A stretch of 31,953 nucleotides of DNA. It comes from a virus. A program made the position numbers and the translations under genes. Location of the stretch: IMG/VR virus record IMGVR_UViG_3300018424_000116, positions 1-31,953 of that record, one strand, 5' to 3'. A model generated the notes under the pieces. The model did not search any database. It saw only the letters and a list, made by a program, of their open reading frames with translations, and was not told the origin of the DNA. Positions 3,903 through 31,953 of the stretch are shown here, one piece after another. Numbering within the stretch: the first letter of the stretch is position 1; each line of letters begins with the position of its first letter.

Positions 3903-3906
3903 ATAA

Positions 3907-6440: not shown

Positions 6441-6444
6441 TAAA

Positions 6445-6954
6445 ATGCACATACAATATGATGTAACAACTAAAGAGATTATAGGGTATCACTACCTGAG
6501 GGCAGATATAAAAAGCATCCCTGATGACTTTGTTGAGGTCACCTCAGGTCAGGAAGATTTTGTTAAGGATAATTACCAGTATCTGACCGTTGATGATACC
6601 GACACAGCTAACAAAATGATAGTAACACCTGCAAACTTTGAAACCTATAAGGCTCAAGTTGACCTTATCAATGCAAGGATTGCAGAGGGTGAAGCGATAG
6701 TCAAATACTTAGAGGATTATCTAAATGAAAAAGCCTCTATCTATGGTTACGATAATTACCACACAGCTATGATCTACAGGGATAGTAGTATCCCTAAGTT
6801 TCAGTTAGAGGGTCAAGCTTTCTTCGATTGTGCTGACGCTAATTGGAGTTATCTAGATGCCAACAGGGATTCTTTTGAAGCCACAGGGCAACCGGACCTA
6901 GCAACTGTTATGGCTAATCACCCTAAGTTATCTGAGTTTGGCTTAACACTTTAA
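6445..6954 (+). CDS. Tail fibre assembly-like protein (DUF4376-like C-terminus)
   Basis: 169 residues, 4 nt after the fibre gene. The N-terminus (MHIQYDVTTKEIIGYHYL, then VEVTSGQ) resembles the short beta region of fibre-associated proteins. The C-terminal half has a helix, then YGYDNYHTAMIYRDSSIPKF and QLEGQAFFDCADANWSYLD. This matches the 'GYD...A..Y..S..P.F..EGQAF..W....W.Y' pattern of the DUF4376 / fibre chaperone group. It probably assists folding or trimerisation of the fibre encoded just upstream, or is a minor fibre component. The ribosome site before ATG 6445 is weak, so translation may be coupled to the upstream gene. Confidence 0.6.
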   Translation: MHIQYDVTTKEIIGYHYLRADIKSIPDDFVEVTSGQEDFVKDNYQYLTVDDTDTANKMIVTPANFETYKAQVDLINARIAEGEAIVKYLEDYLNEKASIYGYDNYHTAMIYRDSSIPKFQLEGQAFFDCADANWSYLDANRDSFEATGQPDLATVMANHPKLSEFGLTL

Positions 6955-15117: not shown

Positions 15118-16131
15118 CTATGATATATTCATCGTCAAACTGTCTCTCTTATCTTTCGTAAAGAGCTTCTTACGGGAACGAGATTCTGCCCCACAACTTG
15201 TGCAGCGGTATCGTTGGAACTTACTGACTGATGTATAGGCATACCCATCCTCTACAAATTCAGTACTACCGCAACGACATACCTGCTCAGGCTCATCAAA
15301 GTACAGGCTGAAATTCGGGTGTTTATTATCCCATGCAGCTAATTTGATGTATAACTCCTCTAGGGAAAGCACATCATGCTTGTTGTACTCTTCGCATTCA
15401 ACCCAAGCCTCAGGCTCATCTTTCATCATCCCTTTCCAGAGATCAAACCCTGCATATTTGTTGTGGGATAACTTCTTGAAAGTTACGTTAAGCTTATCCG
15501 TCATGTACTCAAGTTTATTACTTAGGAACCCGAAGTTTCGTTTGGCAATAACAAGGGTATCGATGTGCTTGTAACTAGATGGCGGTTGAAAACCATTAAG
15601 GATGAACCTAGCATTGATCTTCTTAATATCGAATTTGATACCGTTTTGGGTTATTACAATATCCGCCTCATTAAGTAGCTGCCACAACTCCTCAAGCATA
15701 AACTTATCATCTTGTGTGATCACGTGACCACGGAGATCATTGTAATAAACCTCCTTCTCACTGGCCCCTAACCACTTAGCAGCATAGGATAAAATGAACC
15801 ACTCATCTTTCACCATATTCAGGGAATAGTTCTGGTTAAACATCCCCCATCCCCAGAAGGTGTTAGGGGATGTCTCGATATCTAACACTAACACACGAGG
15901 AAGGTGCTTATGATCTCTCTGCACAAGACCCTTAAAGTCTCCTGCCTTACTCTGGTAGAACCCATTCTTAGATTCATACTCTGCCCACCACAACCTGTGG
16001 GTCTCTTTCCGTAGGAAATCCCCCACCGTGGATTTGCCAAGACCTAACCTCTTGGCGATTTTACGAGATTTCAGACCCTCGGCATCTAGCCGGATAATCT
16101 CTCGTTTCATATTGTCTGTGAGTTTACTCAT
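15118..16131 (-). CDS. HTH - DEDDy exonuclease - zinc ribbon fusion protein
   Basis: 337 residues in three parts. Residues 1-45 are a helix-turn-helix of the resolvase/transposase type (LKSRKIAKRLGLGKSTVGDF). Residues about 78-270 form an RNase H-fold 3'-5' exonuclease: motif I LVLDIETSPN (D.E), motif II ITQNGIKFDIKKIN and motif III YNKHDVLSLEELY, giving the YxxxD of the DEDDy class. Residues about 284-320 hold two cysteine pairs, CRCG and CTSCG, a zinc ribbon. The polymerase gene has its own proofreading domain, so this is a separate nuclease, plausibly aimed at particular sites or structures. It starts 3 nt after the dUTPase stop. The exonuclease call is firm, its target unknown. Confidence 0.85.
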   Translation of the reverse strand: MSKLTDNMKREIIRLDAEGLKSRKIAKRLGLGKSTVGDFLRKETHRLWWAEYESKNGFYQSKAGDFKGLVQRDHKHLPRVLVLDIETSPNTFWGWGMFNQNYSLNMVKDEWFILSYAAKWLGASEKEVYYNDLRGHVITQDDKFMLEELWQLLNEADIVITQNGIKFDIKKINARFILNGFQPPSSYKHIDTLVIAKRNFGFLSNKLEYMTDKLNVTFKKLSHNKYAGFDLWKGMMKDEPEAWVECEEYNKHDVLSLEELYIKLAAWDNKHPNFSLYFDEPEQVCRCGSTEFVEDGYAYTSVSKFQRYRCTSCGAESRSRKKLFTKDKRDSLTMNIS

Positions 16132-19101: not shown

Positions 19102-20128
19102 CGAGATCGATACCTATTTTTGTTAGGAACTCTTCCATATCGAATCGTTCATTCTCTTCACGTTGCATCCACAACAGGATTGCATTCTCTTTCAGATAAT
19201 CTAACCAATTGTACTTGAGGGTCTCTCCTGTCCAAGATACCATTGGTAATTTCTCTGAACCATAGTATGAGTGATATGCCTCACAAACTCTACGGAAAAC
19301 TTCTTTTGTTGTTTGACCTTCAAGGAAGGGTAAGGCTGTTGCTTTCCCTATGCCTCTACCCTTGCGGAGACCATACTTGGTTGTTATGTCATCTGTGAAC
19401 TTAGGAAGTCCCTGAATGTTATCCACCGTATCACCGCTCAATAGCTGGGATGCAAAGCATAGTGCTCCTTCGCTTGGTGTTGTGTAGTGGATACCTCCCT
19501 TCAAATCATAAGGGTCAATACTTGGACTAATAACCATATCAATGTCATTATCGATATAAGCTAGGAGGTAGTCCCATGATCCTGACTTCTTGTACTCCTT
19601 GAAGTTCTCGTAGCCTTTAATACCAAGATAGTCATCAGCTTCCATACCAGAAACTATTGTTACCCGTTTTCCATACTTTTTAATGATTGCTTCTTTAACT
19701 TCAGCAAACATCAGTGGCTTATCTGTTCGGGTTCCCTTGTACTCAAGGATCTTAGCATACTCATGACGGTAACACTCACCACCACCTAAGACAATCTCAT
19801 AATCAACTGCTAGATCAGCACGTTTGATCTTACCGATAAAGAAATCAAAGTGCTTAACACCCTCTTCAATCGGATCGATACCATCACGTACCTTGACAAC
19901 ATCCTCATAATCGAAATCTTCAGAGGTGTAGGCCTTACCGTACTTTTCGTTGATGGCTGCTAATGCTCCACCATTCTTATTCTTCCAGTGCCCGTAGAAT
20001 TCCATACGAGACTTGTACTTCTGAGTCTTACCGCTTTGCTTGTTTGTCACAAGAACGTAAGTCTCTTGAACGTCTATGGCTGCACGTAGAACCGGAGTAT
20101 CACCATCAATTATTATCTTCTTGAACAT
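19088..20128 (-). CDS. 5'-3' exonuclease (PIN/FEN fold, T7 gp6-like)
   Basis: 346 residues. The N-terminus FKKIIIDGDTPVLRAAIDV carries the first metal-binding Asp. GMEADDYLGI and YIDNDIDMVISPSID supply the acidic cluster, and LLSGDTVDNIQGLPKF with GRGIGKATALPFL is the helix-3-turn-helix DNA-binding element. The order is that of the flap endonuclease / T7 gene 6 exonuclease group. It would remove RNA primers and degrade DNA from 5' ends, supporting replication and recombination. It overlaps the small gene upstream by 23 nt. Confidence 0.92.
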   Translation of the reverse strand: MFKKIIIDGDTPVLRAAIDVQETYVLVTNKQSGKTQKYKSRMEFYGHWKNKNGGALAAINEKYGKAYTSEDFDYEDVVKVRDGIDPIEEGVKHFDFFIGKIKRADLAVDYEIVLGGGECYRHEYAKILEYKGTRTDKPLMFAEVKEAIIKKYGKRVTIVSGMEADDYLGIKGYENFKEYKKSGSWDYLLAYIDNDIDMVISPSIDPYDLKGGIHYTTPSEGALCFASQLLSGDTVDNIQGLPKFTDDITTKYGLRKGRGIGKATALPFLEGQTTKEVFRRVCEAYHSYYGSEKLPMVSWTGETLKYNWLDYLKENAILLWMQREENERFDMEEFLTKIGIDLDEFK

Positions 20129-20375
20129 CTTCCCCCGCTAGGCCCTCCTCTAAAACCTTCAACCTTTTAGTAATTTCCTCTTGGCGCTCTAAGAGGATTA
20201 ACATCTCTGCTTCTGGGTTAGCCTTCTCTATCTCATCCTTGTACATATAGACGGCATCTTCACCGTCTGAACCTACCACAATGAAGCTGTATAGATCACC
20301 ACGTACTTCATCCTCTTCTGTCTCTATCTCAACAAGCTTCAGCTTTACGTCCAGCTCATCACCAATTAAAAACAT
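20106..20375 (-). CDS. Unknown acidic protein (89 aa)
   Basis: The start ATG 20,375 has GAGGAGG 4-5 nt upstream. An open frame extends to 20,414 but would run into the hairpin at 20,392-20,407 and lacks a ribosome site. The sequence begins MFLIGDELDVKLKLVEIETE, beta-rich, and ends in a leucine-bearing helix (EMLILLERQEEITKRLKVLE). It lies between the SSB and exonuclease genes. No family recognised. Confidence 0.75.
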   Translation of the reverse strand: MFLIGDELDVKLKLVEIETEEDEVRGDLYSFIVVGSDGEDAVYMYKDEIEKANPEAEMLILLERQEEITKRLKVLEEGLAGEDVQEDNN

Positions 20376-20391
20376 CTTACCTCCTCGTGTA

Positions 20392-20407
20392 AGCCCCCGA
20401 AGGGGCT
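20392..20407 (-). other. UUCG-capped hairpin between ssb and the next gene
   Basis: On the minus strand AGCCCC-TTCG-GGGGCT forms a 6-bp stem closed by a UUCG tetraloop, an unusually stable RNA hairpin. It lies 8 nt after the SSB stop and 17 nt before the next start. No T-run follows (TACACGAGG), so it is more likely an mRNA 3'-end stabiliser or processing signal, or a partial terminator that sets SSB expression apart from downstream genes. Confidence 0.55.
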
Positions 20408-20414
20408 CTTTCAA

Positions 20415-21137
20415 TTAAGCGAAAGGATCTTCACCATCTTGGTCTTCAGCTGCATCAGCCTCGAAAGGAACGTCATCAACTTCCTCTTGTATTTCAGACT
20501 CCTGTGGCTCAACTGGTTCATTGTCAAACTCGGTAGTGGTTTCATCTTGGATGATTTCACCCCACTCGTTTGATGTTGCCTTAGCTTTAGGCGCGTAAGG
20601 GATCAGCTCAGTGATCAGGATATTACCTAACTGGATGAAAGAACCGTAAGTGTTCTCAAGAACAGTGTAGGATAGGTGACCCTTAGAACCATTGGCTGGG
20701 ATCTTGTTCTCATCCATAGTGATGTCACGAACCTTACCATCTTCCATCTCGTAAGCTTTAGGACGGTTGCTCCAGCTGTATGGAACCATGTCACCAGCTT
20801 TAAGGCCAGCATCCGCATTGTCACGAGCTAGCTGTGCACGAGCACGTAGCTTCAGAACAAATTGTTCATCCTGCTCTGGGAATGGAGCTGGGATCTTGTA
20901 GATGCCTTCGAAATCTGGAGTATCTACTTCGCGAACCTTGTTCTTAGGGAACTTCTTCTTGAAAGCTTTAGCAGTTGCTTTATCAACGATAAAGTCTACA
21001 CCATATTCCTTCTCAGTTTTGCTTTCGTATTTGAAATCAGCGTAGTGGAGTTTGCAATAAGCGAACACACCGTTCTTGATCTTACCGTTAGCGCGTTCTT
21101 TACCTTCCGCTGCGTTGTATTCAAAATTCTTGCTCAT
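20415..21137 (-). CDS. Single-stranded DNA-binding protein (T7 gp2.5-like)
   Basis: 240 residues from ATG 21,137 with AGAGGAAAG upstream. A longer open frame begins at 21,218, which is 3-7 nt before the probable transcription start, so it cannot be the main start. The middle is a beta-rich OB-like domain (KYESKTEKEYGVDFIVDKAT; KLRARAQLARDNADAGLKAG). The last 50 residues are a long acidic tail ending QDGEDPFA, with the terminal aromatic residue typical of gp2.5. It coats single strands and recruits polymerase and helicase. It has its own strong promoter (21,221-21,248). Confidence 0.85.
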   Translation of the reverse strand: MSKNFEYNAAEGKERANGKIKNGVFAYCKLHYADFKYESKTEKEYGVDFIVDKATAKAFKKKFPKNKVREVDTPDFEGIYKIPAPFPEQDEQFVLKLRARAQLARDNADAGLKAGDMVPYSWSNRPKAYEMEDGKVRDITMDENKIPANGSKGHLSYTVLENTYGSFIQLGNILITELIPYAPKAKATSNEWGEIIQDETTTEFDNEPVEPQESEIQEEVDDVPFEADAAEDQDGEDPFA

Positions 21138-21179
21138 TATTTTACTTTCCTCTTTGGTTATGTTATAATTGATATAGAG

Positions 21180-21194
21180 GGAGGCTTTCCCTCC
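21180..21194 (-). other. Hairpin in the ssb 5' leader
   Basis: GGAGG and CCTCC pair around GAAAG on the minus strand, about 20-35 nt after the predicted transcription start and 43 nt before the ssb start codon. Pairing hides a Shine-Dalgarno-like GGAGG that follows a TTATG. It may prevent false initiation or stabilise the mRNA. Confidence 0.35.
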
Positions 21195-21220
21195 ATAACT
21201 TCTGTCAATTAAGCCCAACT

Positions 21221-21248
21221 ATTATACACACTTTCGTATGAAAGTCAA
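21221..21248 (-). promoter_or_regulatory. Sigma70-type promoter for ssb
   Basis: Minus strand: TTGACT (21,248-21,243), 16-nt spacer, TATAAT (21,226-21,221). The transcription start would be near 21,214. It lies between the polymerase stop and the SSB gene, so it gives SSB and downstream genes extra transcription. The sequence ACACTTGACTTT around the -35 box recurs at the promoter at 28,159-28,186. Confidence 0.85.
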
Positions 21249-21255
21249 GTGTTTT

Positions 21256-24051
21256 TTAGTGAGTTTCTGCTAAATTGTTACCTACATCGTAGGCTGCATT
21301 AAATGGGAGGGCCATATTATAGTGTTTGCCAGCCATCTGAAGACTCTTATCTCCTAGCTCACCAACGATACAATAGTATTTCTCCCACTTACCATTTACT
21401 TCTTTCGGGTTTGACCATCGGCGACCATCACTATAAGCTTTAGCCTCCTCTTTGGTATCAAACACCTTGGTCTCGATTAGCGATTCGTGTACCTGATATT
21501 GGTACTCATCCTCTCTGTATTCTTCTATTACTAGAAGTGTCGGACTATATCATCATCTCCTCACGGAGAGTCAGGCGCTGTTTCTCTGGGTTATTACCTC
21601 CCAGATACTTCCTGTTATTAAGCCTTATCGCTAACGCTCAGGTAGTCTCTGCACCTTCCCACTCTGGGGCTTGGCTCAGGATTGCCCTCAACTTAATGCT
21701 AGGGTTTCCCTGAATTCACCTGATTTATTTAACTGGGATCGCTCCCAGTGTCCACAATGATCTCTATGGACAAATGCTAATCTTGTAACCTTACCGTTTT
21801 TAAGTAGTCCACGTCTTGCCAACATGTCATACATAAAGCACCCAGATAACATCATGATTAAACTACCGCAACTCTGGAAGAGTGCATTAACCAAGCTGTG
21901 CTTACTACGGGTGTAGATCTTACGACCATCAATACCCCGGATGTATCGCTTATCTGTTGAAGTCCAGTACGCCTCTAGGTTATCCCTTAATTTCTTAAGG
22001 CCCATGTTCGAGTCCCAGAACGCATCAATTACTTTCTGTGCATTCCTACGAGAGATACCTAGCATCTTGGCAATCTTCTTAGCCTGTGCTCCGTAGAGAA
22101 CAGCATAAGTAATGTTCTTACCTGATGAACGTGTCACCTCCCGCCCAGCTGCTCGTGAGTACGCTTTAGCATTCTCGGTGTGGGCATCGATAGGTTCTTC
22201 ACCTTCAGCTAATCCCCAACCAAGCTTGCGAGCATAGTCCCCATTGTCATACCTAAAGGCATAACTTGCTGCTACGAACTGCTCAAGGTTAGATCCATCA
22301 TAACCTAGGATCGTGTAACCCTTCGGTGCTATGAAACAACTACGCATCTCATGACCAAGCAAGACTGATGGATCTGCCTTTGGAAGGTTAACAATTTCCC
22401 GGTGCTTATAACGGTTTGTGTTTGTCACACCACCGAAGCCCTGACCAATACGACCATCAACTGCTAGACGTGGATTGTTCAACCAACCTGTATCTTTCTT
22501 CTCATCTTTGGTCTGGATAACAGACCTACGATTACGAAGTGATAGCCACTTAACGATTGCCTTGGCCAGCTCACCATCCAACATCTCAATAGATGGGCAC
22601 AGGTCACCCTTCTCATCTTTAAACTTAGGGGTTGTGACTAGGTATCTAGCCTGACGCTTAAGCTTATCAAGGATACGATCCTCAATATCATCGCAGAAGT
22701 TTATATCCATCTCATCTGAGATCTGATCCATGTACACAGAGTTTCTAACTTCCTGTATGTAGTCCCTTAGCTTCTGTACCTGGACTTCTTTAGGATACTC
22801 TTTCTTGAATGCATCACGAGTAGCATCCTTGGTCCCCCAAATAGTAGGTCTCCATCCCTCGTGCTCAACCAAATACTCCTTGATATCTTTTTGGTTAGCA
22901 ATCTTCATTGGTACTAACCAGCTAGGCTCTACCTTGTTCTGTAGATCCTTACGTGCTTTCTCCATCTCATCATCAGGTAGTGGTTTGAATTCCACACCCT
23001 TCTTCAGGCATCCACGGATAAAGTCGGGCATCTTAGCCTCGTCAACAACACCATTATTGATGCAGTACTTACGACCATTAGCTGATAGCTCCCCGTTGTT
23101 CTTGAAAGCTGTCTTAGGTGGTGGCTTGAAGTTAAGAGCTTCGTCATCCACCTCATAGCCTAGGCGCTTAAGCCACTTCCAACCATCCGCACTAATAGAC
23201 CCATCACCTTTGAAAGGATTAGCTGGGAAGTTAGGACGTTGACTCTTAGGCATTTCCCTTGGGGGGAGCCTTGGCTCAATCTCCTTCTCGATATCCTCCA
23301 TCATTCGATCAATACGATCACGAAGTTCTACAGCGAACTCTTGATCAAATAGGATGCCATCACGGAATTGCTTCTCCATCAACCAGTCACACTTATTGTT
23401 TAGCTTAAGGGCCTCAGACCAACTACCGCCCTTAGCAGCTTTACCTGCTTCATTGAACAGGGCTGTCAGTGTTAGATCATTGATCTTAACATCCTCAATA
23501 CAACGATCAAGGTAAGTCACCAGTGGTTGATCCCTCCAGTCATGGACTGTAGGCTTCATGTTAGCTACCCGGTAACCCCATGCCATCAAGCCGTGAGGGC
23601 CTACCATATCCTTCTTACCCGTCACCGGGTTAAAGACATGGGTAGGGCAACCTCTAGGGAGAGGTCTGTCAGGCCACAACGCACGACTAACTGACAGTGT
23701 ATCGATCATCTTGATCTCATGGCCATTGATTGACTGAGGACACATATCGAAATCCTCAACCAGTTTAAGCTTCTTAAAAGCTGGTACATCGTAGCCATGT
23801 AGGTTGTGACACGCTACAGACTTAACATCAGACCAGCTCAGGAAGTCATCAAGGTGATCCAAAGGCAATACTCTGGCCTTAATATCACTGCTCTCAATGA
23901 ACAGGAGAGCTTCCTTGTATTCAGGATGGTTAGGATCTAATAAGATTACCCATTCATCCTTCTTGTATCGTTTAAAAACAATACAATGGAACTTAGTAAT
24001 ACCATCTAAGAGGTCATCACCCTCGGTATCTAGTACCCAATAACCATCCAT
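21256..24051 (-). CDS. Family A DNA polymerase (T7 gp5-like), interrupted by a group I intron
   Basis: Exon 1 is 24,051-21,766 and exon 2 is 21,510-21,256. Spliced, they give 846 residues. The ATG 24,051 has AGAGGA 7 nt upstream (an adjacent TTG is also possible). The 3'-5' exonuclease domain shows VLDTEGDD (residues 7-13), CHNLHGYDVPAF and RCIEDVKINDLT. The polymerase domain shows motif A LGYDGSNLEQFVAAS and motif B RSSGKNITYAVLYGAQAKK. Motif C is cut by the intron: exon 1 ends LAFVH and exon 2 begins DEYQYQV, restoring VHDE. Exon 2 ends in the family-typical AGKHYNMALPF...VGNNLAETH. Unspliced RNA would give a protein ending 25 residues after His with no catalytic Asp. It is the replicative polymerase, next to the helicase gene. 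Confidence 0.95.
21511..21765 (-). ncRNA. Group I self-splicing intron in the DNA polymerase gene (no internal ORF)
   Basis: 255 nt. P1: exon UGUCCAU pairs with intron GUGGACA, with the conserved U-G pair at the 5' splice site (21,766/21,765). P10: exon 2 GAUGA pairs with intron UCAUU just before the P1 strand. The intron ends in G before GATGAG. P2 is ACUGGGA-GCGA-UCCCAGU (21,749-21,732). P3 is UCAGGU (21,723-21,718) with ACCUGA (21,643-21,638). P4 is UCAGG/CCUGA within the Q-like AAUCCUGAGCC. P6a is CCC/GGG. P7 is GACUA in the R-like GUGCAGAGACUA with UAGUC in the S-like GAUAUAGUCC. Further hairpins are CUGGG..CCCAG and UCUCC-GUGA-GGAGA. P9 is CUUCUA-GUAA-UAGAAG. The core resembles phage introns such as td; subgroup IA is likely but not proven. 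Confidence 0.95.
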
Positions 24052-24063
24052 CAACTCATCCTC

Positions 24064-25836
24064 TTAGAAATCTGGTTCAAATGGCTCTGTATGCTCCTCA
24101 AACTCTGTCTGAGAGATGTTTGACCCTCCGTTATAGAATTGGGCCAGTGTCTGGCAATCGCTCTCTAGGAAGCCCTCAGGAGGCTCTAGGAAACTACCAG
24201 TATCCTCATCATAGAAAACTGGGAACTTACAGGTTCTACCGTGTTTACGGTCATCCAGTATGCTCAGGTAGCGGGTGTTCTGCTCCTTGATTGGTAACTC
24301 TGGATCTTTGTTGCCCTCGATACCACAAGTATAATAACAAGATTGCATCATAGCCCGGGATCCACGGAACTGACTGGAGAATACCTTCCCTCCCTGCTCA
24401 TGGGGTGCACCTTTCTCTGGAGCCTTCAAGTGACAGAAGCAGTAGAAGGTGAACCCTAAGTCCTTAGCCATCTTACTGATCTCATCCGAGAAGGTCTCTA
24501 ACTCGGTGTTAGCCTCTGAGGCGTTCATACCTGCAGTCAATCGTGTGATAGGATCAATAAAGATATCCTTCACCTTCTCAACCAGTACAGCATGTCGGAT
24601 AGCACCTTTCAGTTCATCCCAGTGGCATCGACCATAGTTGTTATACAAGATAACGTTAGGGCCCACATCGTCCACTGCCTGCATCAGATCACCTTGGGTG
24701 TAGAACGTAGAGCTATCTAGTATAGGGTTGCCCCAAATATCTACCTCGTTACCCTCTTGATCGATAAACAATATCTTCTCAGGGTTAGAGAAATCCTTAC
24801 GATAGAACTTACCGGCTAACTTCTTCAGGGTCTCATCAGGCTGTTCCTCGAACTTAAAGAGTGCTACCTTCTGTGGGTTACCATCTACATCCTTCTCATT
24901 GGTGATAATGAACTCACACAGTTGATCGAGGAAAGTTGACTTACCCATCTTAACACCAGCACCGATGTAATACCCCTCGCCTTCACGCCTGCCTAGGGTT
25001 TTCTTCGTCATAGTGGGCCATGGCCAAGGTCGCCCAATAGTTGGCAACTCCATAGCTTTTTCACGGATATCACTAAACTGAATGAAACCTTCAGGTGTAA
25101 ACTTCTTAGGTGACATGAATGCCCAGTATAGTTGCTCTGAACCTTCACGTTTGAACATATCACATGGATCTTGTCCCTCAGGTAAGTGTGCCACCATGAT
25201 GTCTGGCATTAGGCCATACACAGCGTGGGTTGCTTCCTGACCTTTCATGATCCCCTTCTTACGTTCCTCAGGTGTAGCACAATCGTTATCAAACCCTACG
25301 ATTGTCTCTTTGAATTTACGTAAGAACTTCTGTACATGCTTCTGACCTAGATGTCCAACAGCATTAGCCGTACCAAACCCGATAGATACTACCGTTGGGT
25401 TGGATTTAGAGTATTTATCCTTAAGAACTTGATACACAATCATGGCATCAAATTCTCCCTCCGTTATCATGATCTTTTTACCGCCTGTTGTGTTACCACA
25501 ATCTGTACCAAATAGGTCCACAGATTCCTTAGACACATTACCTATGGTGGTGAAATATCCACGATCTTTCTTATTTTTAGTAAGGTCTCTTTTCTTAAAG
25601 CCTACTGTTTTTCTTGAGCCATCTTCTTGTATTTCCGTGTATGGGAAATAGATAGCTATTGGTGTCACTCCGTCTGCACTGCTTAGTTTAGTTCGCACAC
25701 CGAAGTGTTGTGCTGTTTTGGTTGTTATCCCACGGTCAGCGAAACCTTTGATTGGATAAGTTAAAACCTCTTCTAGTGTCTCCTGAGGAGTCACTGGCTT
25801 AACCTTTTTCTGATACTCTTCCTTCACGTATCCCAA
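24064..25836 (-). CDS. T7 gp4-like replicative helicase (primase TOPRIM region present, no N-terminal zinc domain)
   Basis: 590 residues from a TTG start at 25,836, supported by AGGAG 6 nt upstream. Residues about 28-100 form the RNA-polymerase-like part of the primase (GFADRGITTKTAQHFGV). The TOPRIM motif ITEGEFDAM lies at 124-132, FDND at 182-185 and GQDPCD at 221-226. The RecA-like helicase follows with Walker A GAGVKMGKST (292-301) and Walker B IFIDPITRLT, then an arginine/glutamine region FSSQFRGSRAMMQ and an acidic tail. T7 gp4A begins with a CxxC zinc-binding domain, and none is visible here, so this looks like the shorter gp4B form. It unwinds DNA ahead of the polymerase encoded 9 nt downstream. 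Confidence 0.93.
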   Translation of the reverse strand: MGYVKEEYQKKVKPVTPQETLEEVLTYPIKGFADRGITTKTAQHFGVRTKLSSADGVTPIAIYFPYTEIQEDGSRKTVGFKKRDLTKNKKDRGYFTTIGNVSKESVDLFGTDCGNTTGGKKIMITEGEFDAMIVYQVLKDKYSKSNPTVVSIGFGTANAVGHLGQKHVQKFLRKFKETIVGFDNDCATPEERKKGIMKGQEATHAVYGLMPDIMVAHLPEGQDPCDMFKREGSEQLYWAFMSPKKFTPEGFIQFSDIREKAMELPTIGRPWPWPTMTKKTLGRREGEGYYIGAGVKMGKSTFLDQLCEFIITNEKDVDGNPQKVALFKFEEQPDETLKKLAGKFYRKDFSNPEKILFIDQEGNEVDIWGNPILDSSTFYTQGDLMQAVDDVGPNVILYNNYGRCHWDELKGAIRHAVLVEKVKDIFIDPITRLTAGMNASEANTELETFSDEISKMAKDLGFTFYCFCHLKAPEKGAPHEQGGKVFSSQFRGSRAMMQSCYYTCGIEGNKDPELPIKEQNTRYLSILDDRKHGRTCKFPVFYDEDTGSFLEPPEGFLESDCQTLAQFYNGGSNISQTEFEEHTEPFEPDF

Positions 25837-25845
25837 TACTGACTC

Positions 25846-26067
25846 CTAATGTAATATTAGTTTTGGGTTATCTTTGTTTCTCAACTCAGTGAGATTCTCA
25901 ATTAAAACATCTAATTGTTGCCTTGTCAAGGATGCTGTCGTATGTCCAGAGGGATTTAGTATTGCGATTCCTATCTCATCTAGGTAATCCCACTCAGTCT
26001 CTAGCCAGACTTCAGCATCTTGTTCAGCTTCAATGCAGATGTAATCCTGCTTATCACCATCTGTCAT
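25846..26067 (-). CDS. Unknown small protein (73 aa)
   Basis: Starts at ATG 26,067, overlapping the upstream stop (ATGA), and ends 9 nt before the helicase start. It is acidic in the N-terminal half (CIEAEQDAEVWLETEWDYL), followed by beta-strand and helix (GHTTASLTRQQLDVLIENL). No family recognised. Co-translation with the helicase block is likely. Confidence 0.7.
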   Translation of the reverse strand: MTDGDKQDYICIEAEQDAEVWLETEWDYLDEIGIAILNPSGHTTASLTRQQLDVLIENLTELRNKDNPKLILH

Positions 26068-26246
26068 TCATACCCTCTAGTCTCCTCAAGTTCTGAATCT
26101 ACGTGCTCAATCCATTCATCGAATTGTTCTTTAGTTTCAATATCTCTAGGCATCTCTACCATATTATCCTCTGATAGGATAGAGGGATCATTCACACAGT
26201 CCATAACGAATGATTCCACTGCCTCCCATTCACCCATACTGCTCAA
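26064..26246 (-). CDS. Unknown small acidic protein (60 aa)
   Basis: ATG 26,246 overlaps the upstream stop by 4 nt, and its own stop overlaps the next ATG. Very acidic and helical (EWEAVESFVMDCVNDPSILS; TKEQFDEWIEHVDSELEE). Such small acidic proteins are typical of phage early regions and some are host-enzyme inhibitors or DNA mimics, but nothing specific points to that here. Confidence 0.65.
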   Translation of the reverse strand: MSSMGEWEAVESFVMDCVNDPSILSEDNMVEMPRDIETKEQFDEWIEHVDSELEETRGYE

Positions 26247-26464
26247 ATCATCCCCGCCTCTTTTAATATCGTCATCATTTGTACTGCTGTTTGGATTTCT
26301 TTGTATGGCTCAATCCTTCCGCATAGGTCAACGTCAAAATCAGCCCAAACCAATATTTTCTTATAGGATATTCCAACCTCAACCCCTATTAGATTGGTTG
26401 ATGACAATTCCTCCCCACCATCCACAAAGATAAAGCGGTTGTCCTCGTGTCTTAGGTATTTCAT
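26243..26464 (-). CDS. Unknown small protein (73 aa)
   Basis: Starts at ATG 26,464, sharing a base with the TAA of the small gene upstream (TAATG). Contains FIFVDGGEELSSTN and VGISYKKILVWADFDVDL, alternating strands ending in a helix (IQTAVQMMTILKEAG). No family recognised; the overlap pattern and downstream ATGA support a real gene. Confidence 0.65.
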   Translation of the reverse strand: MKYLRHEDNRFIFVDGGEELSSTNLIGVEVGISYKKILVWADFDVDLCGRIEPYKEIQTAVQMMTILKEAGMI

Positions 26465-26574
26465 TAAAACTCCAACTGAGTCGATCTTACTGCTTCAAAA
26501 TTGTGGCAAGAATTGACGCGATAGTAGGTCATCATCAGCCCGTGAATAAAATGATTTTCATAAAAGCTACTCAT
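26464..26574 (-). CDS. Very small protein (36 aa)
   Basis: Minus-strand ATG 26,574 with AAGGTGG 4-5 nt upstream, running to TAA 26,466-26,464, which overlaps the next start. Begins MSSFYENHFIHGLMMTYYRV. It fills the space between the HNH gene and the following gene. Ribosome site and TAATG coupling support it; function unknown. Confidence 0.55.
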   Translation of the reverse strand: MSSFYENHFIHGLMMTYYRVNSCHNFEAVRSTQLEF

Positions 26575-26584
26575 ACACCCACCT

Positions 26585-27124
26585 TTAGATATACCATGGT
26601 TTTATATTTGACCCGTGATTCTCATGGAATCCACAGACTTCTTCTGCGAACTTTCTCAGCTCAATGGCTTTTTCTTTGTCGTGATAGTAGCCAAGATTAA
26701 GCCTCTTTCTGTCAACTGTTATTCTTGGGTTCCACATATTCATAATCTTGCAGAAATAAACACCAGTAACACCTGAGCTATTATTTTTAGCCATTCTTCT
26801 GTTTTTTGAGTTTTCTTTTTGAGTAACAACTCTAAGATTTTCAATTCTATTGTCATGCCTAATTCCATTTATGTGGTCTATTTGCCTCCCATTAACATCA
26901 ACCCCCTTAAATGCCATAGCCACCCTATGAGCCTTAAACCTCTTCCAGTTAAGTTTTAGTATGTGGTATCCAAGTTTATCAATAGAATCTGCTTTCTGGC
27001 CCTTTTTGCAACTATTCGATCTAGGCTTGGCCCAATAAAACTCACCTGTTTCCTCATCGTAATCAAAGGCTTCTCTTAACTCTTTTATTTCTTCTTCACT
27101 TATTTGTTGCTTGGTTAGTTTCAT
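26585..27124 (-). CDS. Free-standing HNH homing endonuclease with AP2-like C-terminus
   Basis: 179 residues. The N-terminal part FDYDEETGEFYWAKPRS and GYHILKLNWKRFKAHRVAMA leads to the HNH core: QIDHINGIRHDNRIENLRVV then ENSKNRR. The C-terminal 50 residues (SSGVTGVYFCKIMNMWNPRI and LNLGYYHDKEKAIELRKFA) match the AP2-like DNA-binding domain often joined to HNH_3 endonucleases. Its composition is more AT- and lysine-rich than its neighbours, consistent with a mobile insertion in the small-gene region. It may spread by cutting intron- or gene-free relatives. Its target is not known. Confidence 0.92.
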   Translation of the reverse strand: MKLTKQQISEEEIKELREAFDYDEETGEFYWAKPRSNSCKKGQKADSIDKLGYHILKLNWKRFKAHRVAMAFKGVDVNGRQIDHINGIRHDNRIENLRVVTQKENSKNRRMAKNNSSGVTGVYFCKIMNMWNPRITVDRKRLNLGYYHDKEKAIELRKFAEEVCGFHENHGSNIKPWYI

Positions 27125-27157
27125 TTGTCACGCTCCATTTTGTATAGCAGGGTAATC

Positions 27158-27430
27158 TTATTTATCATTAGGTAGCTCCGGTCTGTTATTGCGGGATTCA
27201 AATACGCCTTTTACACCTTCAAAGTGCGGGTGAAAAATACTTTTAGTAGCCGCTAGAAGCTCATTATGGTAATCATCTAGTAAATCCCACTTATCCTGCC
27301 CAAACTCTGTAATGCAGTCGTGTATGAGGTTAATGAGAACCCCGTAGTCACCGTCTTGCAACGCTTCGATTAATAGGCGCATATCATAGTTGCTACCTAC
27401 CCAGCTCTTAATATCTTCTTTCTTAATCAT
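27158..27430 (-). CDS. Unknown small protein (90 aa)
   Basis: Starts at ATG 27,430, overlapping the upstream stop by 4 nt. Helical: DIKSWVGSNYDMRLLIEALQ, then GVLINLIHDCITEFGQD and a C-terminal basic end. No recognised domain. It is the last small gene before the HNH gene, separated by 33 nt. Confidence 0.7.
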   Translation of the reverse strand: MIKKEDIKSWVGSNYDMRLLIEALQDGDYGVLINLIHDCITEFGQDKWDLLDDYHNELLAATKSIFHPHFEGVKGVFESRNNRPELPNDK

Positions 27431-27648
27431 TGGTTTAGCCCCTTGGCTTTACGTATTAATTTATAAGCTTCTTCACCATCCCTAGGCGGAATGAATGCGA
27501 TTTTGATTATTGATTCCAAAGCATTCACCAACCCCTTATTAAGCTCAACTAGCCTCTGCGCATCCTCCTGTTTTACATAATCGCCAGACGGGTCTCCCAC
27601 CATTACACCAAGACCATGAAACTCTTCATCTATCGAATATCTTTTCAT
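27427..27648 (-). CDS. Unknown small early protein (73 aa)
   Basis: I choose ATG 27,648 (MKRYSIDEEFHGLG) because the preceding GAGGATAAATGGATATGAA matches a repeated initiation element at two other positions where only this ATG exists. An ATG 6 nt earlier is possible. The sequence has DPSGDYVKQEDAQRLVELNK and a helix to the end. This pattern (short N-terminus, then 'YVK.EDA..L...N') is common in phage early proteins of unknown role. Confidence 0.7.
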   Translation of the reverse strand: MKRYSIDEEFHGLGVMVGDPSGDYVKQEDAQRLVELNKGLVNALESIIKIAFIPPRDGEEAYKLIRKAKGLNQ

Positions 27649-27654
27649 ATCCAT

Positions 27655-27849
27655 TTATCCTCTCTCTTTATGAATTACACATTGAGTATCAATAAGATAC
27701 GTAAACTTGCTTCTGTATGGGTCGACAACAGGGCACGCCAACTTAATAATCTGGCCATCCTTTGTTTCTATCTCAAAAACCGTAGTTGGGATATATTCCC
27801 CACACCCAGAAATAATCATAATCAGTATTAATGGAATTAGTTTTTTCAT
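27655..27849 (-). CDS. Small lipoprotein
   Basis: 64 residues from ATG 27,849 with AGGAGGGG upstream. KKLIPLILIMIISGCGEYIP is a classic lipoprotein signal peptide with Cys 16 as the lipidation site (ISGC). The mature part is about 49 residues with two further cysteines (LACPV, DTQCVI) that could form a disulfide in the periplasm. Small early phage lipoproteins include T5 Llp, which blocks its own receptor. A superinfection-exclusion role is an attractive but unproven inference. Confidence 0.8.
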   Translation of the reverse strand: MKKLIPLILIMIISGCGEYIPTTVFEIETKDGQIIKLACPVVDPYRSKFTYLIDTQCVIHKERG

Positions 27850-27861
27850 CTCTTTCCCCTC

Positions 27862-27903
27862 CTATGAATAAATCCATGATAAAAAGCTATGCATCGTCTT
27901 CAT
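27862..27903 (-). CDS. Possible 13-aa leader or remnant gene
   Basis: An ATG at 27,903 behind the repeated GAGGATAAATAGGT element encodes MKTMHSFLSWIYS and stops inside the ribosome site of the lipoprotein gene. The strong initiation signal suggests translation. The short length suggests a leader peptide, a decayed gene, or chance. Confidence 0.3.
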   Translation of the reverse strand: MKTMHSFLSWIYS

Positions 27904-27941
27904 ACCTATTTATCCTCAAACAGCTCTAACATTTCACTAAA

Positions 27942-28124
27942 TTAAATAGCCCATTCTTGCGGGGTCATGCAGTTCAATCTAGGAACATAAACAGCATCCC
28001 AAGTTATCATATCTATCTCTTGATCCTCATCTGAGTAGAATCGACATACACCACCCCTAGCACTCACCTTAACTCCCTTGTACCCGGTTCTTTTTCTAAT
28101 GGCTCGCTCTATTTGTCGGTTCAT
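27942..28124 (-). CDS. Unknown small protein (60 aa)
   Basis: Starts at ATG 28,124 behind GGAGGATAAATAGAT, the first gene after the promoter at 28,159-28,186. The sequence MNRQIERAIRKRTGYKGVKV then SARGGVCRFYSDEDQE and AVYVPRLNCMTPQEW resembles short conserved proteins found on phages and plasmids of enteric bacteria and Vibrio. I know of no assigned function. Confidence 0.75.
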   Translation of the reverse strand: MNRQIERAIRKRTGYKGVKVSARGGVCRFYSDEDQEIDMITWDAVYVPRLNCMTPQEWAI

Positions 28125-28158
28125 ATCTATTTATCCTCCGTTGGGACCTTTTAATAGT

Positions 28159-28186
28159 ATTATGCATACTCCAATACAAAAGTCAA
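28159..28186 (-). promoter_or_regulatory. Sigma70-type promoter for the small early genes
   Basis: Minus strand: TTGACT (28,186-28,181), 16-nt spacer, CATAAT (28,164-28,159). It lies in the 65-nt gap upstream of the 60-aa gene. The upstream flank ACACTTGACTTT is identical to that at the ssb promoter. Confidence 0.75.
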
Positions 28187-28189
28187 GTG

Positions 28190-28537
28190 TTAAATGAAAG
28201 TTTCTGTGTACATCGCTTTGCACTTACCTAGGTCATCCTCGTAGAAGTAACGCAACCGGGTATGGGCCTTACCCTTAACCACACGAATTACGTACTGGTA
28301 CTCTATAGGGGATGTATTCTCTTTGACCTTCTTGGCTCTCATCTGGAGGTCACTATTAATCTCCTTAGCTAATTTAGCTACATCCTTATTGGTCTGCCCA
28401 ATAGCTGAACACACGAGGGGTTGCTCAAGGTAGTTTGCATAGTCCTGCAACTCCATCTCTCGGAGGCTGCATGCATTAGAGTCATCAGCGAAGACGGTGA
28501 ATACGATTAAGGCTATTAAGCCAACTGTGATTTTCAT
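28190..28537 (-). CDS. Exported small protein with signal peptide
   Basis: The start ATG 28,537 has GAGGAGG 8-9 nt upstream and gives a clean signal peptide MKITVGLIALIVFTVFADDS with cleavage near NA-C at residues 22-23. An open frame extends upstream (MSKSYGKV at 28,600) but would bury the signal. The mature part of about 93 residues has three cysteines and a basic stretch (QMRAKKVKEN), then VIRVVKGKAHTRLRYFYEDD. Likely periplasmic; no family recognised. It ends 4 nt before the next promoter element. Confidence 0.65.
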   Translation of the reverse strand: MKITVGLIALIVFTVFADDSNACSLREMELQDYANYLEQPLVCSAIGQTNKDVAKLAKEINSDLQMRAKKVKENTSPIEYQYVIRVVKGKAHTRLRYFYEDDLGKCKAMYTETFI

Positions 28538-28592
28538 AGAGCTAACCTCCTCTTTCCATTGATCTTGAATGCTACCTACTTTACCGTATGAT

Positions 28593-29015
28593 TTACTCAT
28601 TGTCAAGCTCCTTAATCCGATCTTCAATAGCTGTTTGAACCCAGACACCAAAGAAATAACGTACAGCTATAAACTGCATCTCTGGGAGATTATCACTACA
28701 GAGAGAATTGCACGGTCCCAACTCAGCGTAGGATTCCTCCCAATATGTATCTGGGAAGAACTTCTCACATACCTCCTCAACAGGGTAATTAAGTGCGTAA
28801 GGTAGATTGCAAATACCCCCATACTCATCTAAGTACCACGAATCTGATGGTAGCTTCACTCCGAGATCCTTTAGAACTGACTCATAGATTGGAATTAAGA
28901 AGGGATGCTCGCTCGGTGCATCATAAAGTAGCCTGCAATACCCTCCAGCGTTGATTAGATTGTCCTTAAGCACTGAAAGCCATGCACGTAGTGTTTCTAA
29001 TTCTGTTGGCATCAT
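28593..29015 (-). CDS. Unknown early protein (140 aa)
   Basis: First gene of the leftward early operon. AGGAG is followed too closely by one ATG, so I place the start at ATG 29,015 (6 nt spacing, MMPTELETLRAWLSVLKDN). ATG 29,021 and 29,012 are alternatives. It contains GGYCRLLYDAPSEHPFLIPI and WYLDEYGGICNLPYAL, with several cysteines and aromatics, and ends in a helix. No family recognised. The predicted transcription start is about 30 nt upstream. Confidence 0.75.
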   Translation of the reverse strand: MMPTELETLRAWLSVLKDNLINAGGYCRLLYDAPSEHPFLIPIYESVLKDLGVKLPSDSWYLDEYGGICNLPYALNYPVEEVCEKFFPDTYWEESYAELGPCNSLCSDNLPEMQFIAVRYFFGVWVQTAIEDRIKELDNE

Positions 29016-29051
29016 TGGCATCTCCTGATGGTTTCCGATTAAGATGGGAGT

Positions 29052-29080
29052 ACTATACACACAAAATAATCTCCCGTCAA
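29052..29080 (-). promoter_or_regulatory. Leftward early promoter
   Basis: Minus strand: TTGACG (29,080-29,075), 17-nt spacer, TATAGT (29,057-29,052). The spacing is ideal. It drives the leftward early genes and is back to back with the rightward promoter. Confidence 0.8.
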
Positions 29081-29083
29081 GTG

Positions 29084-29112
29084 TTGACTTTAAAATAATT
29101 TGTATGTATTCT
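29084..29112 (+). promoter_or_regulatory. Rightward early promoter
   Basis: TTGACT (29,084-29,089), 17-nt spacer, TATTCT (29,107-29,112), about 45 nt before the YqeY-like gene. Its -35 box forms one arm of the palindrome GTCAA-GTG-TTGAC (29,076-29,088), whose other arm is the leftward -35 box. Confidence 0.75.
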
Positions 29113-29163
29113 GGTTGTAACTTCTAGGAGTTAATAATCAAAACAGAAGAGTGAGGTAAATAA

Positions 29164-29568
29164 ATGGAACTATTAGAACAGATTAAGAAAGACCGTATGG
29201 TTGCACGTCGTGAGAAGGACAGCGTTAAGGCTACACTTCTTACCACATTAGTGGGGGAGGCTGATAATATCCTTAAGAGTAAGCAGGCTAAGAACTACTC
29301 AACGGTAGCCCTTGTGAAGAAATTCATCAAAGGTCTGGAGGATACAGGTAATGCTAAGGGCGGTCTAAGCTTAGATGAATCTAAGGAACTAGATATCCTT
29401 AAATTGTACCTACCTAAGACCTACACCATTAGCGAATTGGAAAGCATCATCGATGGTCAGGATTTATCGAAGGGAATGGGACCTATAATGGGTTACCTTA
29501 AGAAAAACCACGGTGATCGTGTCGATATGAAGATGGCTCAAATGATAATCAAGGAGAAATTGAAATGA
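29164..29568 (+). CDS. GatB/YqeY-domain protein
   Basis: 134 residues. LLEQIKKDRMVARREKDSVK at the N-terminus and ELDILKLYLPKTYTISELES then GPIMGYLKKNHGDRVDMKMA at the C-terminus match bacterial YqeY, the free-standing form of the C-terminal domain of GatB, the tRNA-dependent amidotransferase subunit. The GatB tail contacts tRNA. The function of YqeY alone is poorly known. It is the first gene of the rightward early operon, a position often held by host-takeover functions. The next gene overlaps its stop (ATGA). Confidence 0.85.
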   Translation: MELLEQIKKDRMVARREKDSVKATLLTTLVGEADNILKSKQAKNYSTVALVKKFIKGLEDTGNAKGGLSLDESKELDILKLYLPKTYTISELESIIDGQDLSKGMGPIMGYLKKNHGDRVDMKMAQMIIKEKLK

Positions 29569-29798
29569 CAACTATTATGAATGCATCGGCTACCATGACA
29601 GTAGATGGCTTTGGAGAGGTTGAGTATACCATCTCCCCTCTGAATTCAACCGGGGTAGTATCTACAACCATGTGGTCTATCCAGATGAAGCATACCGAGT
29701 CTGGTATCTCCGTCATTAAATCCTTACAAGGGTCCCAATACCGAGCCTTGGCTCACACACTTGAAGAATTAAAAGAGAAAGTCTTGACAAATAGTTAA
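29565..29798 (+). CDS. Unknown small protein (77 aa)
   Basis: ATG 29,565 overlaps the upstream stop by 4 nt. A beta-rich sequence (TIMNASATMTVDGFGEVEYT; TMWSIQMKHTESGISVIK) is followed by a C-terminal helix (ALAHTLEELKEKVL). No family recognised. The next promoter's -35 box (29,784) lies within its last codons. Confidence 0.7.
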   Translation: MTTIMNASATMTVDGFGEVEYTISPLNSTGVVSTTMWSIQMKHTESGISVIKSLQGSQYRALAHTLEELKEKVLTNS

Positions 29799-29812
29799 AA
29801 GTATGCTATAAA
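29784..29812 (+). promoter_or_regulatory. Strong extended -10 promoter inside/after the 77-aa gene
   Basis: TTGACA (29,784-29,789), 17-nt spacer, TGC-TATAAA (-10 at 29,807-29,812), so it has a perfect -35, ideal spacing and an extended -10 TGn. The predicted start near 29,819 leaves a leader of about 190 nt before the next gene at 30,013. Confidence 0.85.
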
Positions 29813-29887
29813 GGTATAACTCTATGGTTTTCCTGATTGTTAAAGGGACTTTCAGTTCACATATTGGCAATCAATAAGCTTAATCAT

Positions 29888-29969
29888 TTAAGGGTTGACA
29901 TAAAGGTTGGTATCTACTAAACTAAATACCAACTTAAATTTTAAACAAACCTTAAGGTACAACCCTTAA
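29888..29969 (+). promoter_or_regulatory. Nested inverted repeats with an internal promoter (operator/origin candidate)
   Basis: Outer arms TTAAGGGTTG (29,888-29,897) and CAACCCTTAA (29,960-29,969) are perfect 10-bp complements. Inner arms GTTGGTAT (29,906-29,913) and ATACCAAC (29,926-29,933) are perfect 8-bp complements. A promoter-like TTGACA (29,895-29,900), 17-nt spacer and TAAACT (29,918-29,923) is embedded, and the inner repeat is centred on the -10. CCTTAAGG (29,950-29,957) is a further palindrome. The 214-nt gap 29,799-30,012 has no gene. An operator, a structured RNA leader or a replication origin could explain this. Confidence 0.6.
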
Positions 29970-30012
29970 GTACATTAATTGTTGTTTGGTGGTAATAACC
30001 ACAGGAGGAAAT

Positions 30013-30270
30013 ATGCCGTTGATTGATGAAGTTGTACATCGCTATTACCAAGTGGGGGCTGGCCAACGGTTAGGGCAGTTCTTCTTTAATACCTATATCA
30101 AGCGTGAGGATAACTCAACTAATAAGTTATTTCACGAAGGTGATTTTAACAAAGCTAGAACCCAAATAGCTAAGTTCATGGAAGACAACCAGTGGAACCA
30201 ACTACCTAAAGAACTTGTGGATTACACCCCGACAGCTACCCGTTTAAAGGAGGGACCTAATGATCAATAA
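30013..30270 (+). CDS. Unknown small protein (85 aa)
   Basis: ATG 30,013 has AGGAGG 4-5 nt upstream. An upstream in-frame ATG lacks a ribosome site. It begins MPLIDEVVHRYYQVGAGQRL, with FFFNTYIKREDNSTNKLFHE and NKARTQIAKFMEDNQWNQLP. It looks like a compact helical protein. No family recognised. The last 11 nt overlap the next gene. Confidence 0.7.
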   Translation: MPLIDEVVHRYYQVGAGQRLGQFFFNTYIKREDNSTNKLFHEGDFNKARTQIAKFMEDNQWNQLPKELVDYTPTATRLKEGPNDQ

Positions 30271-30493
30271 CTTTACAGATGATGAGCATCAACAAATAAG
30301 CACCTTCCACTCTGAACTTGAGAGGCGGGTGAAAGAGAGGTCTGAGTTTGCTCATGTGACAGGAGGCTTAGTTGACGGGCCTGTCCAAGAGTATTTATTC
30401 CAGATCTGGGAAGGAAACTCCCTAGACTGCGAGTTTAGGGTTTACAAGGATGGATATACCCGTGCTGTAACCTATGTACGGGTGTATCGATGA
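30260..30493 (+). CDS. Unknown small protein (77 aa)
   Basis: ATG 30,260 with GGAGGG upstream inside the preceding gene. An N-terminal helix (DDEHQQISTFHSELERRVKE) is followed by beta strands (EYLFQIWEGNSLDCEFRVY, YTRAVTYVRVYR). No family recognised. Confidence 0.65.
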   Translation: MINNFTDDEHQQISTFHSELERRVKERSEFAHVTGGLVDGPVQEYLFQIWEGNSLDCEFRVYKDGYTRAVTYVRVYR

Positions 30494-30507
30494 AACAAGG
30501 AGGTACT

Positions 30508-30750
30508 ATGAAGAACTCTGTGGCTCTGGCAATCTGTGTTTTCCTGCTATCTACTCTCGTGTGGATCAGTGCAAACATTTATTACAAGGAGATTTCAATT
30601 TCTGGTCGCGACATCTATAACGCCAAGCGTGTATGTGATCAAAACCGAGGAGTGAAACATATTAAACTTTTTAGTGACAAACGTGAAATTGTGTGCCATA
30701 ATGGAGCCTCTTTAATCAAAACTAAAAAGAAACCAAAAGAGGAGGATTAG
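30508..30750 (+). CDS. Small single-pass membrane or exported protein (80 aa)
   Basis: The start ATG 30,508 has AAGGAGG 5-6 nt upstream. An in-frame ATG at 30,490 is less well placed. Residues 4-25 are hydrophobic (SVALAICVFLLSTLVWISAN), forming an N-terminal anchor or signal without a clear cleavage site. The rest is basic, with two cysteines (RVCDQNRG, EIVCHNGAS) and a KTKKKPKEED tail. It lies directly before the secreted transglycosylase-like gene (stop adjacent to the next ATG). Confidence 0.65.
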   Translation: MKNSVALAICVFLLSTLVWISANIYYKEISISGRDIYNAKRVCDQNRGVKHIKLFSDKREIVCHNGASLIKTKKKPKEED

Positions 30751-31416
30751 ATGAAGTCAATCGTAGCTCTCATGCTTGCCATGGTAACAACCTTCAGCTT
30801 TGCTAAGGAAACTGAATGCCGGGTCTACACACCTGAACAGGAGAACATTCTGAAGCTGGCCTATGAGGTTGGCTACAGTGAGGACTTAGGGCTTACACTT
30901 GCAGCCATCGTAAAGCAGGAATCATTTGTTGGGCCGTATATTGTGAGGGATAATCCAAATGATTACTCAACACACGAGCGAGAGGATGGTTCGGAGTGTA
31001 AGATTCGGGGGAGCTATGGTGTAACTCATATACTCTTAACTACAGGGGCTTGGCTAGAGGGTGAGACAAACCTATGGCGCGCCAGAGATACGATTGCTAG
31101 AAAGCTAGTCACAGATGATCACTACGCTATCCAGTTGGCGCTTAAGAAGCTCAAGAGTGTTCAGAAGAAAGATCAGGCATGGCGTTCACTGGTAGCCCGA
31201 TACAATGGTGCAGGCCCCGCAGCTAGAGCTTATGCTGAGGAGATTGCAGGCCATGTCCGCGAGTTTCAGAGATGTGGCCTAGTTGGTGATGTTCTTAGCC
31301 CACCAGAGCCAGAGATCCATGTCTTCGGTGAGGACGGTGAAGAAACTATCTACTACATGGACTACTCACTATTTGATTGTCGCTATGATCGCCTCAACTA
31401 TAAGGAGTTAAGTTAA
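30751..31416 (+). CDS. Secreted lytic transglycosylase-like protein
   Basis: 221 residues with signal peptide MKSIVALMLAMVTTFSFA cleaved before KE (A-x-A type: FSFA). The mature protein shows SLT-like features: LAAIVKQESFVG (catalytic Glu in KQES), GSYGVTHILL (GxxGxxQ-like, with Thr-His in place of the usual Met/Gln) and VARYNGAGPAARAYAEEI (the Y-N-G motif). It ends in a C-terminal extension of about 50 residues with two cysteines (RCGLV, FDCRYD). It would cut glycan strands in the periplasm. It lies in the early operon with membrane proteins, far from the endolysin. A defective or regulatory version is possible. Confidence 0.8.
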   Translation: MKSIVALMLAMVTTFSFAKETECRVYTPEQENILKLAYEVGYSEDLGLTLAAIVKQESFVGPYIVRDNPNDYSTHEREDGSECKIRGSYGVTHILLTTGAWLEGETNLWRARDTIARKLVTDDHYAIQLALKKLKSVQKKDQAWRSLVARYNGAGPAARAYAEEIAGHVREFQRCGLVGDVLSPPEPEIHVFGEDGEETIYYMDYSLFDCRYDRLNYKELS

Positions 31417-31953
31417 TGATAGATTTCCTACCAGAAGTTATGACTGCCCATTCTGTTGCAGGGTTCTGCACTTGGGCGGTAATTGTAGTAGCCTTCACTT
31501 TATTATTCCATGGCGCGAATCTCCTATTAACGGGGTGGTGGCTGCTTGTTGATAAGGGACGAACAAGATTACCAGTTCTTTACCATGAGTGGCTTTACAG
31601 TAACTACCGTATCTACGATTACAGTGGTGGTAAGGTAGTAGGAACCCACTACGACTTAGAGCATAACGGTGTTAGCGGCCTACGATTCAGTGAGCAGGGT
31701 ATAGAGAGAGGCCTTAAAAGGGCTAGAGAGAAACACGGAGATCACTTGATCGCTATTCCTGTACTTGGTAGTGGGGAGGGTGCAGGTTTAGCACCCGCGA
31801 TTGTGGCCTTTCTTTCAGTGGTAGCAACCTTCTTCATATACCTTCTAACCATAATGCCTATGGTATTCCTTTCAGTTGGTATCTTTATCGCTGTAAGTAT
31901 TCTTATCTCCTATCTCCGTGATGCACAATTCTACGTAAAAGAGGTAAAAGAGA
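31416..31953 (+). CDS. Membrane protein, 3' truncated by window end
   Basis: ATG 31,416 overlaps the TAA of the upstream gene (TAATG), with AAGGAG 12 nt before it. The frame stays open to the last base (179 codons). A hydrophobic N-terminus at residues about 14-46 (TWAVIVVAFTLLFHGANLLL) is followed by a soluble part of some 80 residues (YSNYRIYDYSGGKVVGTHYD; KRAREKHGDHLIAIPVLG) and at least two further helices (about 128-170). No family recognised. It is probably an inner-membrane protein acting with the secreted neighbours. Confidence 0.75.
   Translation, partial: MIDFLPEVMTAHSVAGFCTWAVIVVAFTLLFHGANLLLTGWWLLVDKGRTRLPVLYHEWLYSNYRIYDYSGGKVVGTHYDLEHNGVSGLRFSEQGIERGLKRAREKHGDHLIAIPVLGSGEGAGLAPAIVAFLSVVATFFIYLLTIMPMVFLSVGIFIAVSILISYLRDAQFYVKEVKE

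Follow-up and report, generated by a model that had tools for sequence, protein, structure and literature searches.

The polymerase gene and the position of its intron

The window, that is, the whole stretch of 31,953 nt analysed here (IMG/VR record IMGVR_UViG_3300018424_000116), carries a family A DNA polymerase gene on its minus strand. The gene is divided into two exons by a 255-nt intron, which the first-pass annotation of the window had placed at exactly these positions:

21766–24054, minus strand: exon 1 of 763 codons, family A DNA polymerase, with the His of motif C as its last codon (Pfam, PHROG)
21511–21765, minus strand: group I intron, 255 nt, no ORF (Rfam, exact absence in 3300019277_000206, covariation)
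21256–21510, minus strand: exon 2, polymerase, 84 codons and stop, beginning Asp-Glu-Tyr (alignment with four relatives)

The insertion point lies between the His and the Asp-Glu of motif C. In-silico joining of position 21766 to position 21510 produces one open frame encoding an 847-aa polymerase (...LAFVH/DEYQYQV...), which matches Pfam DNA_pol_A (E 2.6e-16) and the DNA polymerase family PHROG 17 (E 2e-105). The residues around the junction, LAFVHDEYQY, are invariant in an alignment with four relatives. The intron contains stop codons in all three frames and no ORF; without splicing, the polymerase frame would run through 25 intron codons to a stop, and the 788-aa product would lack the Asp-Glu. 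The suggestion of the first-pass annotation that splicing could limit replication is a conjecture, although such a truncated product is indeed predicted. The start of exon 1 in the ORF list is a TTG at 24054, and the next ATG is at 24051. A gene at 15118–16131, separate from the polymerase gene, matches a PHROG of DNA polymerase exonuclease subunits.

Group I structure and covariation

The Rfam group I model RF00028 matches the intron over its full length (model positions 1–253) with 94.4 bits and an E-value of 2.5e-23 (cut-off 50), recognising the P3–P7 core with conserved P7 and P4–P6. The same search returned no second group I intron in the window, and nothing further at E<0.5 in 20000–31953. 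P2, P3, P4, P5, P6, P6a, P7, P7.1, P7.2, P8 and P9 can all be written with standard pairs, and the principal elements are as follows:

21749–21772, minus strand: P1, exon UGUCCAU with internal guide GUGGACA, U·G at the 5′ splice site (pairing, covariation)
21732–21749, minus strand: P2 hairpin, ACUGGG/CCCAGU (pairing, covariation)
21571–21723, minus strand: P3, UCAGGUG (21717–21723) with CGCCUGA (21571–21577) (pairing, covariation)
21585–21642, minus strand: P7.1/P7.2 extension between P7 and P3, vibriophage sequence type (drawn structure, sequence comparison)
21543–21647, minus strand: P7, the guanosine-binding helix, GACUA (21643–21647) with UAGUC (21543–21547) (pairing, covariation)
21522–21537, minus strand: P9 hairpin with a GUAA loop, covarying with T7-like same-site introns (pairing, covariation)

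P1 is a 7-bp helix that closes on the U·G pair, the final base of the intron is G, and a P10 of 5 bp can be drawn by eye. P3 encloses P4–P6, the 5′ strand of P7, P7.1 and P7.2. The last two are hairpins at intron nt 124–155 and 161–181, located between the 5′ strand of P7 and the 3′ strand of P3; P7.1/P7.2 is a feature of subgroup IA, and the hairpins as modelled would assign the intron to subgroup IA2.

The intron folds with a z-score of −4.3, and none of 200 shuffles folds as well. We aligned it with six other introns of this site, after removal of their endonuclease region. In this alignment 99.6% of cells are paired, a figure somewhat favoured by a structure drawn from the window intron, and 14 of 38 pairs are changed on both sides, a count free of that bias; neither value was reached in 500 shuffles. 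Covariation is present in P1–P4, P6 and P9. In P1, for example, a C-G pair is exchanged for G-C (GUCCAU with GUGGAC in the window, GUGCAU with GUGCAC in the T7-like introns), while the U-G pair is invariant in all seven same-site introns. Across 14 introns of polymerase, terminase and RNR genes, 98.2% of core-helix cells are paired, a figure favoured in the same way, and the covariation score is reached by none of 500 shuffles. Both alignments were built without structure, and P8 and the loops, where alignment is too poor, were excluded from the counts. Positions 21511–21765 are a complete group I intron. The covariance-model score, the structure and the absence of an open frame thus bear out the first-pass annotation, which had described an ORF-less group I intron splitting motif C of the polymerase; its two splice sites, placed by the U·G pair in P1, the terminal G, the 5-bp P10 and the open joined frame, are likewise supported.

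Introns at the same site in other phages

Phage polymerase introns are reported at E. coli position 881 in the T7-like coliphages PhiI and W31, and at position 674 in SPO1, SP82, Bastille and Pf-WMP3 (PMC3428280). Site 881 is the His that precedes Asp-Glu, and the window intron is inserted there, between the His881 and Asp882 codons; the agreement with PhiI and W31 is by reported site number, as their sequences lie outside our alignment. SPO1, which had been named as the precedent for an insertion in motif C, is not one, since its intron is at 674, in the fingers.

Introns of 598–647 nt occupy the identical codon boundary (CAT/GATGA) in phages K1F, CLB_P1, Bas104, Edwardsiella WAG25P1 and Klebsiella RCIP0053. 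All five have an ORF of 396–417 nt listed inside them, named HNH or homing endonuclease in K1F, CLB_P1 and Bas104 and hypothetical in WAG25P1 and RCIP0053, where the intronic translation EVDHKC.NRACCNVEHLQ is of the same kind as the HNH ORFs. The polymerase is interrupted at the same residue in two further myovirus isolates (L036 and L037). The L037 gene contains two intron-sized insertions, at 5037–5772 and 6104–6903, which break it at query residues 651 and 763.

The last 42–45 nt of the window intron are 84–93% identical to those of the T7-like same-site introns. The earlier view that this is an independent case does not hold against HNH-bearing introns at the same codon boundary with this identity over the last 45 nt; judged by sequence, the window intron is not independent of the T7-like site-881 introns.

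A possible mosaic origin

BLAST matches to the intron fall into two sets. Within nt 39–248 the matches are introns of other genes, chiefly from marine phages; at nt 211–255 they are T7-like polymerase introns. The ORF-less terminase and RNR introns of vibriophages 11895-B1, 1.187.O and 184E37.1 have the sequence type of P4–P6 and P7.1/P7.2 in common with the window intron, whereas their genes, P1, P2 and P9 are different. Specifically, nt 48–163 are 83% identical to the 11895-B1 terminase intron. The ends of the window intron are at a distance of 0.16 from the T7-like type and 0.57 from the vibriophage type, while the core is at 0.79 and 0.18, respectively. A T7-like/vibriophage/T7-like arrangement accounts for 44 of the 53 informative sites, a value that 1 of 5000 permutations reaches. 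In trees of both segments the window intron is placed between the two groups, on the branch that joins them, near the T7-like introns for the ends and near the vibriophage introns for the core. We considered these trees (100% supports) as proof of recombination and rejected them as such, as they show no topological conflict and constrained trees are equal in likelihood; the case for mosaicism consists of the distance shift and the site-pattern permutation.

An arrival independent of the T7-like introns is unlikely; in one such scenario a terminase or RNR intron of a vibriophage would have reverse-spliced into the site, its ends only converging on the T7-like type. Independent arrival would accord with the 75% identity of nt 53–190 to the 11895-B1 terminase intron, compared with at most 63% to T7-like introns, and with the placement of the intron between the groups in both segment trees, whose topology alone does not prove recombination. 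The segment from P9 to the end argues against convergence, since its sequence is mostly not dictated by the exon and yet has the 84–93% identity given above; so do both strands of P3, which are of the T7-like type, and the site pattern.

The likeness of the core to vibriophage terminase and RNR introns instead suggests, at the level of sequence, that the intron is mosaic. Tentatively, and with slightly less than even confidence, we propose a natural chimera in which the ends (P1–P3, P3′, P8 and P9) come from a T7-like site-881 intron and a contiguous P4–P7.2 core from a vibriophage intron, the endonuclease having gone with the replaced core instead of decaying, with mobility perhaps provided by a free-standing HNH protein. 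Such a swap would explain the missing endonuclease because the endonuclease of T7-like introns is located within the block that would have been replaced. Looking for further chimeras that combine both features, we went through 24 more contigs; in none did the printed 3′ flank run into the motif C exon (GATGAG), and a scan of genome contigs for the 3′ end of the intron gave no match.

Intronless counterparts and probable splicing

Three relatives were found in IMG/VR: L004 (3300023173), L002 (3300019277_000206) and L003 (3300037575). L004 carries the intron and L002 lacks exactly the 255 nt, being identical to L004 across the remaining 12.5 kb compared; over a longer overlapping block of 33 kb the two differ by 4 mismatches and 1 gap. 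There is no microhomology at the junction, and the 255-nt deletion cannot slide by one base. Apart from the window record itself, a single contig, L002, contains the exact spliced 28-mer, and a single one, L004, its unspliced counterpart. The window and L004 introns differ at a single base, 21635 (intron position 131), in the P7.1 loop. Between 16259 and 29054, the window differs from L002 at 20 bases, and at every one of them it differs from L004 as well; these differences are mostly transversions and may be strain variation or assembly errors in the window.

We take 3300019277 to be a salt-marsh metatranscriptome and 3300023173 to be its paired metagenome; a literature search for sample metadata of 3300019277 found no record. 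On this understanding, L002 is probably spliced RNA of the intron-bearing phage. Alternatively, L002 could be DNA of a coexisting phage from which the intron was precisely lost, a reading that bears on the evidence for splicing and not on the identity of the intron. We consider it improbable: the dataset is taken to be a metatranscriptome, L002 shows no other difference from L004 over the 12.5 kb, precise loss without microhomology would be unusual, and L002 has the same divergent exon flanks (see below) without the intron, so that RNA processing fits better than an ancestral empty allele. Should 3300019277 be a DNA dataset, then L002 would represent an allele free of the intron, and the case for splicing would be that of the structure alone. 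Reading L002 as spliced RNA, we infer that the intron is likely spliced in vivo. That it is a degenerate, non-splicing relic in a polymerase gene inactivated or replaced by another is very improbable: although it has no endonuclease and the incomplete genome leaves room for a second polymerase, all core helices are intact, P7 and the U·G pair are conserved, the frame is open through both exons, whose conservation extends up to the final residue, and one contig has precisely the spliced sequence.

Exon flanks and a candidate mobility gene

L003 is about 93% identical to the window and intronless. Compared with the window gene, it differs at 18 of 70 positions in the interval −30 to +40 around the site, an interval picked after inspection of the data, versus 154 of 2474 elsewhere (p 3.8e-7), and 13 of the 14 changed codons in this footprint are synonymous. 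The most divergent 70-nt stretches of the gene start 33–37 nt upstream of the site and contain 19 differences, while the best elsewhere contains 12. The divergence peak is a co-conversion-like footprint, of the kind that intron transfer leaves. Alignment with intron-free relatives has thus returned both an exact 255-nt absence, in L002, and an intronless gene with divergent flanks. In L003 the primase-helicase gene is itself split at Walker A (GVKMG/KST): a group I-like insertion carrying an HNH-like ORF lies there (3403–4109), and the window gene is uninterrupted at that place.

The intron has no homing endonuclease of its own. An HNH gene of a common phage type lies nearby:

26585–27124, minus strand: free-standing gene for an HNH endonuclease, 2.5 kb upstream of the polymerase (Pfam HNH_3, E 1e-12)

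This stretch is present in L004 and L002 and missing from the intronless L003. Its protein is 22% identical to K1F gp5.3 over 95 aa (E 0.14), showing no clear kinship. In collaborative homing, an endonuclease-free intron depends on a free-standing endonuclease (PMC3984707); by analogy, the HNH protein is a possible homing helper for the intron, which we offer as a lead only.

Proposed mechanism and comparison with known introns

Beyond the structure, site, homology, exact intronless counterpart and divergent flanks established above, we are highly confident of a reading in which this is an ORF-less group I intron at site 881 in the family A DNA polymerase gene of a marine phage akin to Vibrio phages 277E43-1 and PWH3a-P1, splicing would restore motif C, the ends of the intron are of T7-like stock and it would have entered by recombination. 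The RNA would fold round the P3/P7 core; guanosine would attack the 5′ splice site fixed by the U·G pair of P1; and exon 1 would then attack behind the terminal G, rejoining the catalytic His-Asp-Glu. At least the ends of the intron would share their stock with the HNH-bearing T7-like introns at site 881, and the recombination that brought the intron into this lineage would also have copied short exon flanks.

Both the kind of intron and the site are known, and the window intron is a new, well-supported example that leaves general knowledge of group I introns unchanged. With it, the range of the site-881 polymerase intron reaches beyond T7-like enteric phages to a large marine phage, in an endonuclease-free form. 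The intron-bearing genomes, the near-identical contig with the spliced sequence and the intronless relative with a sharp footprint make up a natural set and a tidy case for studying the loss of endonuclease genes from introns. The size of 255 nt, which had been regarded as near the lower limit, is not exceptional, as bacterial group I introns of 205–250 nt are well known and an intron of the same size, also ORF-less, occupies the same polymerase site in Vibrio phage 424E50-1 (OX241437, L116 2069–2323; Rfam 65 bits). The 424E50-1 intron is of another structural type, with extra 3′ hairpins, and 22 of 54 aligned positions are identical in the last 65 nt. The 424E50-1 polymerase gene has two ORF-less group I introns (L116 1705–2323), neither of them marked as a feature within the stretch that is annotated.

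The closest counterparts are the introns of PhiI/W31 and of K1F/Kayfunavirus, WAG25P1 and RCIP0053, which share with the window intron the insertion point, the P1/P10 logic, P9 and the 3′ end. The PhiI/W31 introns are reported as subgroup IA2 and contain an HNH ORF in P6a, absent from the window intron, in which all frames are interrupted. The T7-like introns examined here are 598–647 nt long with an endonuclease ORF in the P6 region, compared with 255 nt and no ORF in the window, and their P4–P7.2 block is of a different sequence type. In SPO1, SP82, Bastille and Pf-WMP3, too, group I introns interrupt the genes of family A polymerases, but these lie in the fingers, at 674, and carry HNH genes (PMC3428280), whereas the window intron lies in motif C.
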